DNA from: Magnetospirillum molischianum DSM 120
Lineage (GTDB): Bacteria > Pseudomonadota > Alphaproteobacteria > Rhodospirillales > Magnetospirillaceae
Direction of reading: 5' to 3'
DNA: 45,486 nt
Assembly: GCF_000294655.1 (NCBI RefSeq)
Contig: NZ_CAHP01000010.1
Location: 31-45,516, forward strand
Shown here one piece after another: positions 30,068 to 37,142 of the stretch (positions within the stretch are counted from its first letter, which is position 1; every line of letters begins with the position of its first letter). The notes below the pieces were generated by a model, which saw nothing but the letters and a program-made list of their open reading frames with translations, had not been told where the DNA came from and searched no databases. Position numbers and translations under genes: made by a program.

Positions 30068-30886
30068 TCAGCAATGCGGGCGCGGCAACGACTCGATCGA
30101 TTCGAGCTGGCCGCGCAGGCTGAAGGTCCGGAATATCTGCTCGATATCCTGGGCCACTCCATTGGCGTGATAGGTCAGCGACATTTCGAATTCCGGCAAG
30201 GGGTCGTGGCTGCCGGTGGGGAAGAACGCCATCCGCATCGGCCATGCCGGAGAATTCAACAACGGGCTGGACGCTACCGCCGGTGGCGACGGTGGCGTCG
30301 CCACCACCCGCCCGATACGAGCGCTGGTCTCGAACGGCCCTTCGTCGCCCTGACCATCGAACAGCGGCCGCGTCAACGACAGCCCTCCCCGTTCGGCCAA
30401 GGCCAACAGGTTAATGGTGTGCGCGGTCGGGAACAGCGTGCCCTTCGGCAGGCGAACGACATGAGCCTCGGGCCGGGTGAAGCGGGCCGTGCCGCCTTGG
30501 CCGCGCCCGTTCAGTTTCGCGGTGCCTTCGACTTCCTCGACGACCTGACCATCCCGGATCTGACGGACGCGGAAGCGATAGCGCAGCCCATCCTTGGACT
30601 CCCATCCCAGGAAATCGGTGGTGGTCTCGACCTGACCACCCTCGGAATAGGAATAGGTGATCGCCAACCGAAATTCAGTTACCCAGCCGTCGCAGGTGTT
30701 ATTGAACTGATAGGTCCACACACCCCCGGCATTGGCCATGCCGCTACCGGAACGGGCGGTGGACAGCCCCATCCGATAGGTCGCGCGGTGGGATTCCAAC
30801 TCGGCTGGAAACGCTTGCGCCACCGAGGCAAACGGCAACACCCCGGCGACCATACCCGCCAAGACCAATCCACGACACCGTCTCAT
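30068..30886 (-). CDS. DUF3108-like periplasmic protein
   Basis: 272 residues from the ATG at 30886, which has GGAGG 6 nt upstream; the longer in-frame extension is not credible. The N-terminus MRRCRGLVLAGMVAGVLPFASVAQAFP is a signal peptide. The mature part opens with ESHRATYRMGL and later has TYQFNNTCDGWVTEFRLAITYSYSEGG and FLGWESKDGLRYRFRVRQIRDGQ, a beta-rich pattern of DUF3108-type outer-membrane-targeted proteins. Function unknown. A TATACT on the minus strand about 30 bp upstream may be its -10 element. Confidence 0.75.
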   Translation of the reverse strand: MRRCRGLVLAGMVAGVLPFASVAQAFPAELESHRATYRMGLSTARSGSGMANAGGVWTYQFNNTCDGWVTEFRLAITYSYSEGGQVETTTDFLGWESKDGLRYRFRVRQIRDGQVVEEVEGTAKLNGRGQGGTARFTRPEAHVVRLPKGTLFPTAHTINLLALAERGGLSLTRPLFDGQGDEGPFETSARIGRVVATPPSPPAVASSPLLNSPAWPMRMAFFPTGSHDPLPEFEMSLTYHANGVAQDIEQIFRTFSLRGQLESIESLPRPHC

Positions 30887-31006
30887 CCGTGCCCTCCGGG
30901 GGAAAACAGGCCTCAGTATACACTGCCGGCGTCCGGGAGCCAGAACGGTCACTCTGTATTTGCGCGCAACCCTGCCCCTCTCCAGGCAGAATCGCACGCA
31001 ACCGAA

Positions 31007-31468
31007 TCAGTCTTCCTCATAATCGCCACGCTCGGCCCGCTTATGGCAGGCGGGGCAGTTGGATTTCGCCTTCACCTCGGGCCTGGCCCACTCCGATTCC
31101 GGGAAATCGTGCTTACGCAAAAACGCCGGATTCTCGGTAATTCGCTGCGGTGTCCCCCCCGGTGCGACCCAGCGGAGAAAGCGTCCGGCGACCTTGCCGC
31201 CAACACGATCGGCCGCTCCGTCTTCCAGTACCCGGCGGATATGAGCGGCTTTGTCGGGAGCCATCGCGGCGGATTCACCGAAATGGTTGTCCAGGGTATC
31301 CATCATCCGCGCCCATGACCGAGCCGGAAGGAAATCGGGCTGAAAGGCCATATGGCACTCTCCACACGCTTTAAGAGTTACCGGGTCGGTCAGGGGCGCA
31401 ACCCGGTCGGCCAAGGCCGGGGCAGTCAGCGACAAGAGCAGCCCCGCCCCCACGACGATCGATCTCAT
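31007..31468 (-). CDS. Diheme cytochrome c (DHC type)
   Basis: 153 residues. Signal peptide MRSIVVGAGLLLSLTAPALA. Two c-type heme sites: CGECH (35-39) and CPACH (138-142). Distal ligand candidates are His62 (NHFGE) and His120 (LRKHDFP). Length and spacing match the diheme cytochrome DHC that in Rhodobacter and Shewanella is encoded next to SHP and a cytochrome b and is thought to pass electrons to SHP. Here it follows the cytochrome b-SHP fusion gene by 11 bp, probably as the last gene of that operon. Confidence 0.9.
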   Translation of the reverse strand: MRSIVVGAGLLLSLTAPALADRVAPLTDPVTLKACGECHMAFQPDFLPARSWARMMDTLDNHFGESAAMAPDKAAHIRRVLEDGAADRVGGKVAGRFLRWVAPGGTPQRITENPAFLRKHDFPESEWARPEVKAKSNCPACHKRAERGDYEED

Positions 31469-31479
31469 GGTCTAATTCC

Positions 31480-32337
31480 TTATTTAGAGGCCAGAAAGGT
31501 GATGAAGTCGCCCCGGTCGCGGGCAGAGCATTCGCGACCCAACACCGTCTTGCAATCGCGGTTGAAACGCTCCTCGACCTTTTCGGCATCGGTAAAACGC
31601 TTCGGGTTGGCCGACACCGCCGCCGGGGCGATCTCACGTCCGGTCTTGGCATGGCGGCCGGGCCGGGTCGGATCGTCGGTGTGGCAGGTGGCGCAGGACG
31701 GGAAATCTGGATTGACGGTATTGCGCGCCCGGTAGATCTGTTCACCCCGCGCCGCCGAAAAGCCGCCGAAAGTCCCGTCTGCTGCCTTTGCCGCAGCGGC
31801 ATAGGTCGCCAGGATCGCATCGCGGGCAGGATCGACGGCATAAGCCGGCGAAGCCGCCACAAGTCCAAGCAGAACCAGCATCGGCACGACTGAAGGACGG
31901 ATCGTACTCAGCACCTTCTCGCGCAGCCGCTTCCCCTGGAAGACCCAGGCGACCAGCACGGCATGGGCAGGGATCAGCCACAAACCGCCCTCGGATAGTC
32001 CTTCGTGCAGATCCTCGACTGAGGTCACCGCATCGGCGACCACTCCAGACAAGGCGGCGGCTCCAACCATCGTCATCAAGATACCTCCCATCCAGATCAT
32101 CAGGCGCGACCGCCCAGGACGCACCAGGGCCAACGGCCCGCGCGGTGTTCCGATCGCTGCCAGTCCCAGCCGCAGCGCCACGGCGATCAACACCCAGTAG
32201 CCCGCGAAGACATGCATGCGGTACGTATCTTCGTCAGCGGTAAGCCAGGCGACCAGGAAGCCCCCGGCCAGGGCGGCGTGCCACAGCCGGAGCGCGGGCA
32301 ATTCCCAACGTCCGGGACCGGAGCGGGGGGCGTTCAT
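31480..32337 (-). CDS. Cytochrome b fused to an SHP-type (DUF1924-like) cytochrome c
   Basis: 285 residues. The N-terminal half (1-140) is a four-helix cytochrome b of the b561/hydrogenase type, with heme-ligand candidates His20, His42, His111 and His125. It ends in a basic stretch (GKRLREK). Residues about 150-167 (MLVLLGLVAASPAYA) look exactly like a signal peptide but are in frame and act as a fifth helix. The C-terminal domain is SHP-like: CATCH heme site (215-219), a Cys262/Cys270 pair suggesting the SHP disulfide, and Asn259 placed where SHP has its dissociable Asn ligand. In known systems the b subunit and SHP are separate genes. The start overlaps the His/Asp-rich gene stop (ATGA). 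Confidence 0.88.
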   Translation of the reverse strand: MNAPRSGPGRWELPALRLWHAALAGGFLVAWLTADEDTYRMHVFAGYWVLIAVALRLGLAAIGTPRGPLALVRPGRSRLMIWMGGILMTMVGAAALSGVVADAVTSVEDLHEGLSEGGLWLIPAHAVLVAWVFQGKRLREKVLSTIRPSVVPMLVLLGLVAASPAYAVDPARDAILATYAAAAKAADGTFGGFSAARGEQIYRARNTVNPDFPSCATCHTDDPTRPGRHAKTGREIAPAAVSANPKRFTDAEKVEERFNRDCKTVLGRECSARDRGDFITFLASK

Positions 32338-32624
32338 TTACGCCCGTCCCGGTCGCCCGAGTCGCGGCGGTCGTGGTGACGCCCGTGGTGATCGTCGTCA
32401 TCATCGTCATCGTCATGATGCGAGCGGCGAGATTTGGTCTGGTCCGACGCCTTGCCGCCGCGATCGGCCGGAAGATAGCCGGTATCGACCGAAGCTAAGG
32501 GAGCCGACTGAATCGTGGCGGGAGCGGCACCGCTTCCGGTCTGGGCCGAAGCGGAATAGACAGAGGCGGCAGTCGCGACGATCGCCGCCGCACCCAGTCC
32601 TTGCAGGATCATCTTGCCAAGCAT
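32334..32624 (-). CDS. Small secreted His/Asp-rich protein
   Basis: 96 residues; ATG with GGAG 8 nt upstream. Signal peptide to about residue 28 (IVATAASVYSASAQ). After a Ser/Ala/Gly-rich stretch the C-terminus alternates His, Asp and Arg (SRRSHHDDDD, DDHHGRHHDRRD). Such tails bind divalent metals in other proteins, so periplasmic metal or heme handling is possible but unproven. First gene of the operon leading into the cytochrome b-SHP fusion, divergent from the PepSY-two-component operon. The Asp/His tract is encoded by a trinucleotide repeat. Confidence 0.75.
   Translation of the reverse strand: MLGKMILQGLGAAAIVATAASVYSASAQTGSGAAPATIQSAPLASVDTGYLPADRGGKASDQTKSRRSHHDDDDDDDDHHGRHHDRRDSGDRDGRK
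32391..32420. repeat. Imperfect trinucleotide repeat encoding the Asp/His tract
   Basis: Ten consecutive triplets of the GTC/ATC/ATG type (read on +) encode the poly-Asp and adjacent His residues of the small secreted protein. Slippage here would change the number of acidic residues without breaking the frame. Confidence 0.6.
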
Positions 32625-32677
32625 TGCGGTTCTCCTTGTCCGCGGTGTGAACTAGAGCGACCATAGGCTTGGCAGGC

Positions 32678-32715
32678 TGAACCATCGGTGACGGATCGGT
32701 TCATGCCTGGTTCAT
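32678..32715. promoter_or_regulatory. Direct-repeat operator in the divergent intergenic region
   Basis: GGTTCAT occurs at 32698-32704 and again at 32709-32715, an exact 11-bp period (one DNA turn), with an inverted half-copy TGAACC at 32678-32683. OmpR/PhoP-family regulators bind such tandem heptamers on one DNA face. The site lies 25 bp upstream of the PepSY-RR-HK operon start codon and 54 bp upstream of the divergent His/Asp-rich gene. It is the natural candidate for binding by the adjacent response regulator. Confidence 0.6.
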
Positions 32716-32739
32716 GGCGAGGAGCTTAAGGGTTGGTCC

Positions 32740-33060
32740 ATGAAAGCAATTTTTGCCCTTCTGCTGGCGATGACGCTACTGACGGCCTCGCCGGTTCGCG
32801 CAGAGGGTCACGGCCGCGACCACGACGATGAGCATGATTGGGTTCGCCGCTCGGTCCTGGCCGGAGAAATCATGCCACTGGCGAAGATTCTCGACCGCGT
32901 TGACCGCGAGTTCGGGGGCGAGTTGATCGAAGCCGAACTGGACGACCACCATGGCCGCCCGGTTTACGAGATCAAGCTGATCGGCCGCGACGGGAGGATG
33001 CGCAAGCTGCTCTATGACGCTGCGGACGGCACTTTGTTGAAGAGCAAGGAGCGGCGATGA
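32740..33060 (+). CDS. Periplasmic PepSY-domain protein
   Basis: 106 residues. Signal peptide MKAIFALLLAMTLLTASPVRAE, then a short His/Asp-rich segment (GHGRDHDDEHDW) that echoes the composition of the divergent secreted protein. The remainder is one PepSY domain (EIMPLAKILDRVDREFGGELIEAEL and PVYEIKLIGRDGRMRKLLYDA). PepSY proteins often sit beside two-component systems and may modulate the sensor. The stop overlaps the response-regulator ATG (ATGA). Confidence 0.88.
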   Translation: MKAIFALLLAMTLLTASPVRAEGHGRDHDDEHDWVRRSVLAGEIMPLAKILDRVDREFGGELIEAELDDHHGRPVYEIKLIGRDGRMRKLLYDAADGTLLKSKERR

Positions 33061-33728
33061 GGGTCCTGGTGGTCGAGGACGAACCGCAATTAACGCTGCG
33101 ACTGGAACAGGCGCTGGAAGCTGCCGGTCTGGTCGTCGATACCGCCTATGACGGAGAAGAGGGGTGGTTCCTCGGCGATACAGAACCCTATGACGCTGCC
33201 GTGCTCGATCTCGGCCTGCCCAAGCTCGATGGGGTCAGTATCCTAAGCCGCTGGCGAGGTGCCGGGCGGACCCTGCCGGTCCTGGTGCTGACCGCCCGCA
33301 ACCGCTGGGCCGAAAAAGCAGCCGCCTTCGCCGCCGGAGCCGACGATTACGTCACCAAACCATTCGAGATGGAAGAGGTGGTGGCCCGCATCCGCGCTCT
33401 GATCCGCCGCGCCGCCGGTCACGCATCCCCCGAAATCGTATGCGGGCCGCTGCGGCTCGATACTTTGGGCGGACGGGTCAGCCTGGACGGTATGCCGGTC
33501 ACGTTGACGGCGCAGGAATTCCGTATCCTCTCCTACCTCGCCCATCACCAGGGCCGGGTGGTTGGGCGCTCCGAATTGTCCGAACATGTTTATGATCGCG
33601 ACGCCGACCCTGAATCCAACGTCATCGACGTTCTGGTCGCACGGATCAGACGCAAGCTGGGAATCGAGCTGATCCATACCTTGCGTGGCCAGGGCTGGCG
33701 GCTGCAACCTCCCGCCGATGCCGGATAA
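33057..33728 (+). CDS. OmpR/PhoP-family response regulator
   Basis: 223 residues. Receiver domain with the acidic pair VVEDEPQ, phospho-acceptor Asp in AAVLDLGLPKLDG, Thr in VLVLTARN and Lys in DYVTKPFE. The C-terminal winged helix contains LTAQEFRILSYLAHHQGRVVGRSEL and DVLVARIRRKLG. Closest by eye to QseB/PmrA/TctD-type regulators. It is translationally coupled to the PepSY gene and overlaps the kinase gene. Its likely target is the 11-bp direct repeat at 32698-32715. Confidence 0.94.
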   Translation: MRVLVVEDEPQLTLRLEQALEAAGLVVDTAYDGEEGWFLGDTEPYDAAVLDLGLPKLDGVSILSRWRGAGRTLPVLVLTARNRWAEKAAAFAAGADDYVTKPFEMEEVVARIRALIRRAAGHASPEIVCGPLRLDTLGGRVSLDGMPVTLTAQEFRILSYLAHHQGRVVGRSELSEHVYDRDADPESNVIDVLVARIRRKLGIELIHTLRGQGWRLQPPADAG

Positions 33729-35079
33729 GCCGGAGATGAGCAGTTCCCGGTCGCTCCGGTCACGCCTGATCCTGGGGGCGGCGCTATGGCTGGTTCTGGC
33801 GATGGCGCTGGGGGGCTGGATTCTCGGCAACGCCTTCAGCAACGCCGTCGAAGCCAGCTTCCACGAACGGCTAAGAGCGCATTTGCGAGCGCTGGCGGCG
33901 GTGGTAGAGATCAACTCCGCCGGCACGGTCGGCGTCGGGCGCCCCGTCGGCGAGCCTCGATTCGACCTGCCTTATTCCGGCTGGTATTGGCAGGTCTCGG
34001 ACGGAGAGACGGTGCGGGCACGCTCCCGTTCGTTGTGGGATTTCGCCCTGCCCGTCTCCACTCCCGCCACCGAGGGCGTGGTCCTGTTCCGCCAAGACAT
34101 CGGCCCACGGGGCGAGGCGCTGGAAACCGCCGAGCGCGATCTGGTCTTTCCCGGCAGCGAGCGCCTGCTTCACCTGTCAGTTTCGGCCAGCCGCCAAGAA
34201 GTCGATAACGAGGTGCGCGGCTTCAATCTGCTGTTGACCCTGGCGCTGGGAGGGTTGGGGGTAGGATTGATTGCGGCGGTCGCGCTTCAGGTCGGCTACG
34301 GGCTGCGCCCACTCGGACAATTGGCCCTGGCGTTGGACAACCTGCGCCAGCGCGGCGGACGGCTGCACGGGCACTATCCGCGCGAAGTCGCGCCCCTGGT
34401 CGCGGCAGTGAACGAAGTGCTCGATCACGACGAACGGATGATCGCCCGCGCCCGCACCCATGTCGGCAACCTTGCCCATGGGCTGAAGACCCCGCTGGCG
34501 GTGATCGAGGCCGAACTGGGAGCCTCCCAGCCCGACCGCGCCGTTCTGTCAGGCCAGATCGCACGGGTCAACCGGCTGATCGATGTCCATCTGTCGCGTG
34601 CCCGCGCCGAGGCGGCTCCGTCCGGCAGTCTCGCCGCCCGTGTCGCGGTGGCCGAGGTCGCCGCCGAGATCAAAGCGGCGCTGGTGCGGATTCACGCCGG
34701 ACGCGACCTTTCCATCGAATTGGAATGCGCCGCCGACGCTCTGGCTCCGATCGCTCGCGACGATCTCGCCGAAATCCTCGGCAATCTGATGGATAATGCC
34801 TGCAAGTGGACAACACGGCGGGTAAAGGTCACTGCTACCGCGACCTCTCTGACCGTCGAGGATGACGGGCGCGGTCTCTCGCCAGAAGAAAGCGAGATCG
34901 CGACCCAACGCGGTGCCCGCCTCGACGAATCGGCTCCCGGCTCGGGCCTGGGGCTGGCGATTGTCGCCGATCTGGCGGCATTGTCCGGCCTGGAATTGGG
35001 ATTTGGACGGTCGGATTGGGGGGGGCTGAAAGTTACGTTGAGTTGGGCCGACCGCCGCCGCAATGGCAGCCGGTCATGA
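33718..35079 (+). CDS. Membrane sensor histidine kinase
   Basis: About 453 residues from the ATG at 33718, which overlaps the regulator gene by 11 bp; an ATG at 33736 is the alternative, with GGAG directly abutting it. TM1 LGAALWLVLAMALGGWILG, a periplasmic sensor domain of about 140 residues with many Trp/Tyr (LPYSGWYWQVSDGE), TM2 LLTLALGGLGVGLIAAVAL, HAMP-like linker, H-box LAHGLKTPLAVIE, N-box NLMDNACKW, G1 VEDDGRGLS and G2 GSGLGLAI. QseC/PhoQ-like architecture. The signal is unknown; the neighbouring SHP-type cytochrome suggests oxygen, NO, redox or metal. Confidence 0.93.
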   Translation: MPDKPEMSSSRSLRSRLILGAALWLVLAMALGGWILGNAFSNAVEASFHERLRAHLRALAAVVEINSAGTVGVGRPVGEPRFDLPYSGWYWQVSDGETVRARSRSLWDFALPVSTPATEGVVLFRQDIGPRGEALETAERDLVFPGSERLLHLSVSASRQEVDNEVRGFNLLLTLALGGLGVGLIAAVALQVGYGLRPLGQLALALDNLRQRGGRLHGHYPREVAPLVAAVNEVLDHDERMIARARTHVGNLAHGLKTPLAVIEAELGASQPDRAVLSGQIARVNRLIDVHLSRARAEAAPSGSLAARVAVAEVAAEIKAALVRIHAGRDLSIELECAADALAPIARDDLAEILGNLMDNACKWTTRRVKVTATATSLTVEDDGRGLSPEESEIATQRGARLDESAPGSGLGLAIVADLAALSGLELGFGRSDWGGLKVTLSWADRRRNGSRS

Positions 35080-35734: not shown

Positions 35735-36244
35735 TCACCTTTCTGGCGGAGGCGGCGGAGGTGGTCCATTGCCGCCAAAAGGCGACGGACCGTTGTGACC
35801 GAACGGTGGCGGCGGAGGCGGGGGCGGGTTCCAACGCGAAATCGCGGCGCGGCCCTCGTGCGACATTCGGGTCGCTGCCTCGATCACCAAAGCCGCCAAG
35901 GCATCGTCCATCCGCTGACGAGCGGCCGAGAACTCGGTGAACAGCTGACGCAGTGCGCCCGGTTCAAAATCGCTCATCCCCAGCACGGCGCGAACCTGGT
36001 CGGGAAAAGCACGCAAGGTACGATGGCCGCTCTCGATCTCGGGAGCGCGCACGGCAACAACCTCGCGCAGGATGGCCGCATCGGCAGACGGCAGAGTCAC
36101 AGCGATCCGCTCTGCTATCTCGGTGATTCCGGGGGGCGGCGGGTGGTTGGGACGATAGACCACCACCAACACGGTCCCCAGAAAGACGTTGAGCGCCAGA
36201 GACGCCGTTAGAACCCATTTCGTCGGAATCACGATCCCCATCAT
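35735..36244 (-). CDS. CnrX/ZraP-like periplasmic protein with poly-Pro tail
   Basis: 169 residues. One N-terminal membrane segment (VLTASLALNVFLGTVLVVVY) leads to a helical periplasmic domain (ITEIAERIAVTLPSADAAILREVV, LRQLFTEFSAARQRMDDALAALV) resembling the heavy-metal resistance/periplasmic sensor fold of CnrX, ZraP and CpxP. The C-terminus is a low-complexity Pro/Gly/Phe/Asn tail with two runs of seven or eight prolines. It overlaps the anti-sigma gene stop (ATGA). I infer that it senses or buffers an envelope or metal signal for the sigma factor. The Met- and His-poor core gives no clear metal site. Confidence 0.7.
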   Translation of the reverse strand: MMGIVIPTKWVLTASLALNVFLGTVLVVVYRPNHPPPPGITEIAERIAVTLPSADAAILREVVAVRAPEIESGHRTLRAFPDQVRAVLGMSDFEPGALRQLFTEFSAARQRMDDALAALVIEAATRMSHEGRAAISRWNPPPPPPPPFGHNGPSPFGGNGPPPPPPPER

Positions 36245-36543
36245 AACCCTGCTATGTCAACCGACGCTGTGGTCAGCATCTCGGCAAAACGGATCGGCGT
36301 CTGAGCGGCAAGAAGATCCTGACCGACGATCACCCCTAACACCGCCGCGGCGGCCATTGGCACGGCCAAGCGAGTGAATGGTGCCAGGATCGCCAGACAT
36401 AAGGACAGAAAGGAAGGGCGCAACGGAGCGCGGTCTGGCAACCGGGCAAGCACTCCGGCGACGACCTTGCTGGCGCGGGCAGACGAGGCTTCGAAGCGAG
36501 CCGCATCGCTGCGCATCAGCCTATCAATGTCGAATTCGTTCAT
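36241..36543 (-). CDS. Membrane anti-sigma factor candidate
   Basis: 100 residues. A cytoplasmic N-terminal helix region (MNEFDIDRLMRSDAARFEASSARASKVVAGVLARL) is followed by a hydrophobic stretch at about 44-78 long enough for one or two transmembrane helices. There is no HxxxCxxC zinc motif. It lies between the ECF sigma gene (ATGA overlap) and the periplasmic sensor-like gene, the position of CnrY-type anti-sigma factors. Function inferred from location and topology. Confidence 0.7.
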   Translation of the reverse strand: MNEFDIDRLMRSDAARFEASSARASKVVAGVLARLPDRAPLRPSFLSLCLAILAPFTRLAVPMAAAAVLGVIVGQDLLAAQTPIRFAEMLTTASVDIAGL

Positions 36544-37142
36544 GTCACGTCTCCGATCCCGGTAATGCCGCGCCGAGCCAGGGCCGATCGCAGAGCCCGT
36601 TTTCCCCGGACCAGCAAAGATTCGACTGCGGGTACCGTTAATTCCATGATCTTTGCGGCCTGCGGCGCACTCATTCCGGCATAGTAATGAAGCGACAAGG
36701 CCGCGCGCTGACGGTTTGGAATATCGTCCAATGCCTGAGAGACCAAGCGGTCGCGCTGGTGAGCAACGGCAAGGTCAAGCCCGCCAGGGGCCGTGTCAAC
36801 CGGATCGCCGGCCTCCTCCAGCGGAGCGTAGCGAGCGCGCCGTCGGACATCCAGGCTGGCGTTCAGCACCACCCGATAGAGCCACGTAGAGAATTTTGCC
36901 TCTCGATCAGGTTCCCAGCGCGGAGCCATCTTCCAGACTTTCAGAAACGCGTCCTGTACGATTTCGTCGGCCTCGTCCGCATTACGGGTAACACGGGTGG
37001 CCAGGGTCAGCATCGGGCGTGCATGGCGCTCCATCAATACCGCGAACGCCCCCCGATCCCCCAGGGAAGCGGCACGGAGAAGATCATCGTCGCCAGCGGC
37101 GTCGATCCCAATCGTCGGGTTCCCGCCGTTCTGCTCCAACAC
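36540..37142 (-). CDS. ECF-family RNA polymerase sigma factor
   Basis: 200 residues. The GTG at 37142 is taken; the TTG one codon later fits the AGGGAG ribosome site slightly better. Region 2 contains LMERHARPMLTLATRVTRNADEADEIVQDAFLKVWK and FSTWLYRVVLNASLD; region 4 contains ALDDIPNRQRAALSLHYYAGMSAPQAAKIM and VESLLVRGKRALR. First gene of a three-gene operon with a membrane anti-sigma candidate and a CnrX-like protein. I found no clear ECF -35/-10 pair in the 80 bp upstream. Confidence 0.95.
   Translation of the reverse strand: MLEQNGGNPTIGIDAAGDDDLLRAASLGDRGAFAVLMERHARPMLTLATRVTRNADEADEIVQDAFLKVWKMAPRWEPDREAKFSTWLYRVVLNASLDVRRRARYAPLEEAGDPVDTAPGGLDLAVAHQRDRLVSQALDDIPNRQRAALSLHYYAGMSAPQAAKIMELTVPAVESLLVRGKRALRSALARRGITGIGDVT

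Follow-up and report, generated by a model that had tools for sequence, protein, structure and literature searches.

What does a two-component system have to do with the electron-transfer genes that it faces? The window analysed here, 45,486 nucleotides of contig NZ_CAHP01000010.1 of Magnetospirillum molischianum DSM 120, raises this question at positions 31,007 to 35,079, where two gene arms diverge: one encodes a PepSY protein, a response regulator (RR) and a sensor histidine kinase (HK), the other a small His/Asp-rich protein, a fusion of a b-type cytochrome (CytB) with the heme protein SHP, and a diheme cytochrome c (DHC). We found that the unit is real, well conserved and of a published kind, the SK1-type divergent SHP module, and that a 37-bp element lies between its arms. 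In the reading that we consider probable, phosphorylated RR (RR~P) acts through this element, a predicted operator, to activate the cytochrome arm and further genes. Gene content, the operator, its spacing from the -10 element, the link with the kinase and the conservation of the small protein (hereafter the microprotein) all come from the comparison of genomes. The features of the unit are the following.

31007..31468, minus strand: DHC, a secreted diheme cytochrome c with two CxxCH motifs (PF09626, 6.2e-33; similar in sequence to the solved structure 2fw5, 'DHC, diheme cytochrome c', 1e-25)
31480..32337, minus strand: CytB-SHP fusion, with a four-His cytochrome b, a hydrophobic segment containing an AxA site (about 31837) and an SHP domain whose putative sixth ligand is Asp (DUF1924, 5e-36; similar in sequence to the solved structure 1dw0, presumably the Rb. 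sphaeroides SHP, 2.4e-21)
32334..32624, minus strand: signal-anchor microprotein, long form with a His/Asp-rich tail, overlapping CytB by 4 bases (conserved in 34/34 loci)
32660..32665, minus strand: predicted -10 hexamer of the cytochrome arm, TATGGT (A at +14 and T at +18 past the operator in 34/34)
32678..32714, minus strand: bidirectional predicted operator, TGAAC-N6-TGAAC-N6-GTCA-N6-GTTCA (reversed control 0/55)
32740..33060, plus strand: DbfQ-like secreted PepSY protein, called Orf1 by Meyer et al. (PF03413, 1.7e-8)
33057..33728, plus strand: OmpR-family RR (PF00072, 1.6e-24; PF00486, 1.3e-21)
33718..35079, plus strand: SK1-type sensor HK with SGWYWQ and RSRSLWD in the sensor domain (PF02518, 4.7e-13)

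The six genes sit where an earlier note on this DNA had placed them, as confirmed by the open reading frames (ORFs) and by the Pfam matches (DHC; DUF1924, PF09086, which is the SHP family; PepSY; Response_reg; Trans_reg_C; HATPase_c). The signal peptide of the PepSY protein was read from the sequence, and matches of this protein in the PDB to designed armadillo repeats were judged spurious. CytB falls below the cut-off of the Pfam b561 family (E 0.06), and its histidines H20, H42, H111 and H125 are kept in all 34 sequences. SHP, DHC and CytB genes are thus present together, as expected of an SHP operon. Coupling by start/stop overlaps, which the same note had seen within each arm, holds for the microprotein and CytB genes, for PepSY and RR (4 bases each) and for RR and HK (11 bases) if HK starts at 33718, as is probable; the alternative start at 33736 leaves a 7-bp gap. 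It does not hold for CytB-SHP and DHC, which are 11 bp apart.

The gene set had been put forward as one apparently not yet described. This claim fails because Meyer, Kyndt and Cusanovich (2010; PMC2909971) describe, in the portions of their paper available to us, the same layout in Rhodospirillum rubrum: Orf1, a CytB/SHP chimera and DHC, with a divergent Orf1-RR-SK1 operon. They propose a divergent promoter and electron flow from quinol through CytB and DHC to SHP, name a CytB/SHP chimera for Magnetospirillum magnetotacticum as well, and cite electron transfer from DHC to SHP in Rb. sphaeroides. Their SK1 motifs are SGVYWQ and RSRSLWD; RSRSLWD is present in 29/29 of the kinases that we compared and (S/T)GWYW(Q/E) in 27/29. 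What is new relative to their account, and worth following, is the 37-bp operator with its regulon, the microprotein and the possibility that CytB-SHP is a polyprotein. A limited literature search found no paper on the SK1 regulon or on the microprotein.

Do the two arms belong together? Among the 55 family genomes, 37 encode SHP and 37 a close SK1 kinase (E<=1e-60). Both are present in 34 genomes, SHP alone in three (G011, at a contig end, G014 and G015), SK1 alone in three (G008, G018 and G054) and neither in 15. Of the 34 genomes with both, 30 have the arms next to each other in divergent orientation (contig ends cut two of these loci, L060 and L062) and four have them separated (G009, G020, G031 and G032). 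The earlier note had named free separation of the arms in related genomes as grounds for giving up its proposal that both arms share a regulatory region and that electrons run along a regulated chain from membrane to periplasm with SHP as the last member. Such separation is not what we observe, and the four separated SHP operons (L067, L073, L084 and L085) all keep the operator; the proposal is supported. At the level of the order, SHP is found in 113 of 317 genomes; among 12 stretches that were read, nine carry SHP. G202 is a further genome with separated arms; both carry an identical operator sequence, and the microprotein gene is found again, truncated, next to the regulator arm.

The operator itself is present in the intergenic region of all 34 comparable loci. 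Three of the 37 loci were left out, L069 because of a contig end and L070 and L071 because they lack this CytB; a regular expression with small changes allowed finds the element in 33 of the 34, and L065 fits with ATCA for GTCA. The operator is near-palindromic, with a tandem GTTCA-type box in each direction, and its spacer bases vary while the half-sites and the -10 bases are constant. On the cytochrome side the A at +14 and the T at +18 are invariant, and the full TANNNT stands at +13 in 21/34 loci (shuffles: mean 1.5, maximum 7). On the regulator side TANNNT occurs at +13 in 10/34 loci and within the tested range in 11/34 (shuffles: mean 2.4, maximum 8). The spacing from operator to -10 is the same as that from box to -10 in PhoP-regulated promoters.

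The operator follows the kinase. Allowing up to two mismatches, it is found in 37/55 genomes, with 0/55 for the reversed control, and it coincides with SK1 in 36 genomes; one genome has the operator only (G012), one SK1 only (G008) and 17 neither (Fisher p 4.6e-12, uncorrected for kinship). G018 and G054 carry SK1 and the operator without SHP, and in these two the gene facing the regulator arm encodes a cytochrome b561. Conversely, G014 and G015, whose SHP has the ordinary Asn/Trp pair, have neither SK1 nor the operator. At order level the exact pattern occurs in 56/317 genomes, and none of the reversed-control counts tabulated exceeds 0.

Which other genes might the regulator reach? A scan of the window genome with up to three mismatches returned the divergon, sites on contigs C16, C19 and C20 and a weak one on C32 (reversed control: one match); up to one mismatch, there are four operator loci. 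The C16 operator precedes a cytochrome b561 gene (PF01292, 4.7e-19) and the C19 operator a gene for a PepSY_2 protein (3.6e-23). The C20 copy (L126 3434-3928), conserved in G035 and G036, forms an almost perfect inverted repeat; it is flanked by an RND pump gene on one side and a Cupredoxin_1 gene (1.7e-8) on the other. It has a -10 hexamer at +13 in the window genome, seen by eye also in G035 and G036, and the A/T at +14/+18 toward the cupredoxin gene, not in the opposite direction. We treat it as a candidate only, since it could perhaps be a terminator. The C32 site, with three mismatches, has no sensible target. A b561 match (E<=1e-10) is present in 15/55 genomes, and in 11 of these 15 the operator lies 54 to 549 bp upstream on the same strand; in G045, G042, G043, G039 and G018 a small secreted ORF lies between the two. 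All 16 sites outside the training set (11 before b561, one before PepSY_2, one before a b561 of G202 and three at SHP or regulator arms of other families) have the A/T at +14/+18 toward the gene, a count that is not one of independent cases because several of the source genomes are closely related.

Some further sites and copies were seen beside these. The third operator of G202 precedes a b561 ORF (L194 2412-2948, minus strand) whose visible C-terminal part is His/Asp-rich. The window genome holds a further b561 copy in two pieces in different frames, as if frameshifted (L125 866-1234; C19:17365-17733), upstream of the PepSY_2 target. In G021 a chemoreceptor gene is preceded, at about 60 bp, by an operator-like site (L132 3377-3415), and G024 has an operator copy near a regulator.

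How is the cytochrome arm built? CytB and SHP are fused in 20 of the 34 loci and separate in 14. Ahead of SHP, all 20 fused loci encode a hydrophobic stretch plus an AxA site, an arrangement that closely resembles the signal peptides found where SHP is encoded separately (in L063 the automatic junction window was off register and V-Q-A was read by eye). The retention of such a stretch suggests processing into two proteins: CytB-SHP may be a polyprotein that has kept the SHP signal peptide and from which signal peptidase I frees soluble SHP. FbcH of Bradyrhizobium, a cytochrome b/c1 precursor that is cleaved, is a model for this. AxA is, however, common in Ala-rich stretches, and the rule applied was loose and had no control; in our judgement the case for a polyprotein is nearly balanced, leaning slightly against it.

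The heme site of SHP bears on its ligand. Oxygen and NO binding had been carried over from related proteins, a step that should not be taken untested for the SHP of the window, which has Asp/Arg in place of Asn/Trp near the heme; this is the N88D/W84R of Meyer et al., who write, in the available part of their text, that such changes may preclude oxygen binding (PMC2909971). In 35 of 37 SHPs the putative sixth ligand is Asp rather than Asn and position 84 holds Arg, Gln or His; the Asn and Trp pair occurs only in L070 and L071. Oxygen or NO binding is therefore not simply transferable.

What, then, is the small gene that opens this arm? The His/Asp-rich protein of the window is, judged by its sequence, the long form of a conserved microprotein. 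An ORF of 28 to 107 aa precedes CytB in 34/34 loci with this CytB, and in 33 of them GGAG lies no more than 16 bases ahead of it; its product has the core M(L/I)xKM(I/L)xxGLxAAxxVxxAAxxYA, with changes, and a tail that ranges from none to long His/Asp-rich runs. His/Asp-rich proteins in both arms, as proposed in the earlier note, are thus found in this species and in R. rubrum, but in 24 of the 34 loci the minus-arm protein has only 28-46 aa. The proportion of nonsynonymous differences is below that of synonymous ones (pN<pS) in 518 of 561 pairs, versus 196 and 59 in two shifted frames.

The small protein of the window has no PepSY and no other Pfam match. The first cytochrome-arm gene has no PepSY match either in L203, which we take to be the R. 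rubrum locus, or in L204, and the minus-arm small gene was therefore rejected as a PepSY copy. The plus-arm Orf1 of L203 does match PepSY. Meyer et al. present the first cytochrome-arm gene of R. rubrum and R. centenum as a homologue of the plus-arm Orf1 (PMC2909971, in the text available); since Orf1 alone matches PepSY in L203, their 'highly homologous orfs' look, at least at that locus, like shared His/Asp-rich low complexity.

We think that the microprotein is probably a signal-anchor partner of the b cytochrome. It could instead act merely as a leader peptide or couple the translation of CytB, or be a freely decaying secreted metal-binding protein; its length of 28 to 107 aa, its tails, which are barely alike, and the resemblance of the long forms to an ordinary signal peptide plus tail would all fit. 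Yet the core is under purifying selection and present in every one of the 34 loci, and in G018, a genome without SHP, a similar 87-aa gene with an acidic/His tail lies between the operator and b561 (L129 5496-5759, plus strand). We hold this alternative to be tenable but less likely than not.

In the mechanism that we infer, HK is probably restrained by the secreted PepSY protein, as DbfS is by DbfQ in Vibrio cholerae, and would phosphorylate RR. RR~P would bind the symmetric operator as two PhoP/BqsR-like tandem boxes in opposite directions. The cytochrome arm, on whose side 12 bp separate the end of the box from the -10, would be activated, and so, with less certainty, would the regulator arm itself; unlinked genes of the window genome, for cytochrome b561, the PepSY_2 protein and perhaps the cupredoxin, would be activated as well. 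Electrons would pass from quinol to CytB, DHC and SHP, the ligand-binding c-heme at the end, and the microprotein, here with a His/Asp tail, would be made together with CytB, probably as its partner.

A metal or redox signal is our best guess, because published RNA-seq shows a related SHP cluster and its regulator co-induced on pyrite in Allochromatium vinosum. In the part of that study available to us (PMC11267869), the log2 fold changes for pyrite versus sulfide are 7.10 for DUF1924 (second in the list), 5.54 and 4.38 for the DHCs, 5.13 for b561, 5.32 for Alvin_0024, 4.15 for RR, 2.18 for HK, 3.51 for a FieF pump and 3.02 for CzcA. Meyer et al. had tied this cluster to Orf1/RR/SK1 and to metal transport (PMC2909971, same portions). 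These data slightly raise the support for shared regulation. A bolder picture would join three parts: an SK1 regulon (SHP chain, second b561, PepSY_2 and cupredoxin) under one symmetric operator and responding to ferrous iron or another metal; the microprotein as a single-span subunit of CytB, the smallest of 28 aa, with a His/acidic tail that binds metal beside SHP; and an SHP cut from a polyprotein. As a whole we think it rather unlikely.

Several observations weigh against activation of the SHP module by RR~P through the operator. All operator counts come from one order, with kinship ignored. G012 has two operator-like sites but no kinase match, and G008 has the kinase but no site. The operator is missing in four of the 15 b561 genomes. 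On the regulator side, the -10 of the window is TAAGGG at +13, without the final T, and where the regulator arm is detached, it has no operator at the score limit used in G009, G020 and G031 and a weak one in G032; self-activation is therefore not general. Finally, growth on pyrite versus sulfide changes more than iron (PMC11267869, in the part available). The arms could also be neighbours by history, with a regulator that serves mainly envelope stress, as DbfRS, and SHP expression incidental. DbfRS has broad targets and is activated by outer-membrane damage (PMC12714742, in the portion available), and the regulator persists in G018 and G054, which lack SHP; against this, the operator stays with the SHP operon where the arms are separated, and strong sites in the genome are few (the four loci with up to one mismatch), which makes such a history unlikely. 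That the element is the site of another factor, or mere shared ancestry of a short intergenic region, is very improbable: a single order supplied all the genomes and kinship is not considered in the Fisher tests, but spacers vary while half-sites and -10 bases stay, and the element precedes unlinked genes and tracks the kinase rather than SHP.

Two neighbours of the unit complete the picture of the locus. An EipB-like protein (PF08904, 6.4e-75) is encoded after DHC at 30068-30997 (minus strand) here and in both M. fulvum loci; no full-length copy was seen at the other family loci scanned. Beside the kinase, at 35735-37142 (minus strand), a Metal_resist protein (PF13801, 6.3e-19), a short membrane-type ORF and a sigma-70-like ORF stand in a row, a trio that looks like a metal-sensing extracytoplasmic function sigma system, the latter two ORFs being judged by eye.

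How does the module compare with known systems? It is most like the SHP operon of R. rubrum and Magnetospirillum, with which it shares genes, order, chimera, separate DHC, divergent Orf1-RR-SK1, kinase motifs and the Asp sixth ligand; the available portions of that paper give no operator or further targets (PMC2909971). In Alvin_0018-0026 of A. vinosum, SHP, DHCs, b561, RR and HK are likewise induced together on pyrite, but CytB and SHP are separate genes and there are two DHCs and metal efflux genes (PMC2909971 and PMC11267869, both in part). PhoP/PhoQ provide the best NCBIfam models for RR and HK, yet the half-site differs and the scores lie far below the curated NCBIfam cut-offs (187 versus 336 bits for RR, 115.6 versus 497 for HK). 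BqsRS/CarRS of Pseudomonas aeruginosa resembles the module in its tandem pentamers, TTAAG-N6-TTAAG, with the downstream pentamer sitting on the -35 of the bqs promoter (PMC4682146), and also has PepSY genes next to the kinase (PMC4682146, PMC12666569). Its half-site differs from the operator here, and the Fe2+-binding ExxE of BqsS, which senses Fe2+, has no clear counterpart, although E..E occurs in the sensor slice of 18/29 kinases (PMC12666569; both papers as far as available).

The regulator arm is closest in plan to DbfQRS of V. cholerae: a small PepSY protein with a signal peptide is encoded beside RR and HK, as in that operon of a secreted PepSY protein, an OmpR-family RR and an HK, and such modules are reported widely (PMC12714742). 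There DbfQ binds the DbfS sensor domain with a Kd of 30 nM and favours phosphatase activity; unlike here, DbfQRS controls biofilm genes, and the word cytochrome has 0 occurrences in the available portion of the paper. Through the SHP module, electron-transfer genes are linked to the PepSY-partnered kinases, for which the periplasmic mechanism was demonstrated in V. cholerae in 2025. The module also connects with the pyrite transcript data already in print and casts doubt on the homology claimed for the first cytochrome-arm gene. The function of SHP is not yet settled, and an operator precise enough for genome scans names both co-regulated genes and a regulator to delete, so that in ordinary laboratory strains its purpose becomes testable.

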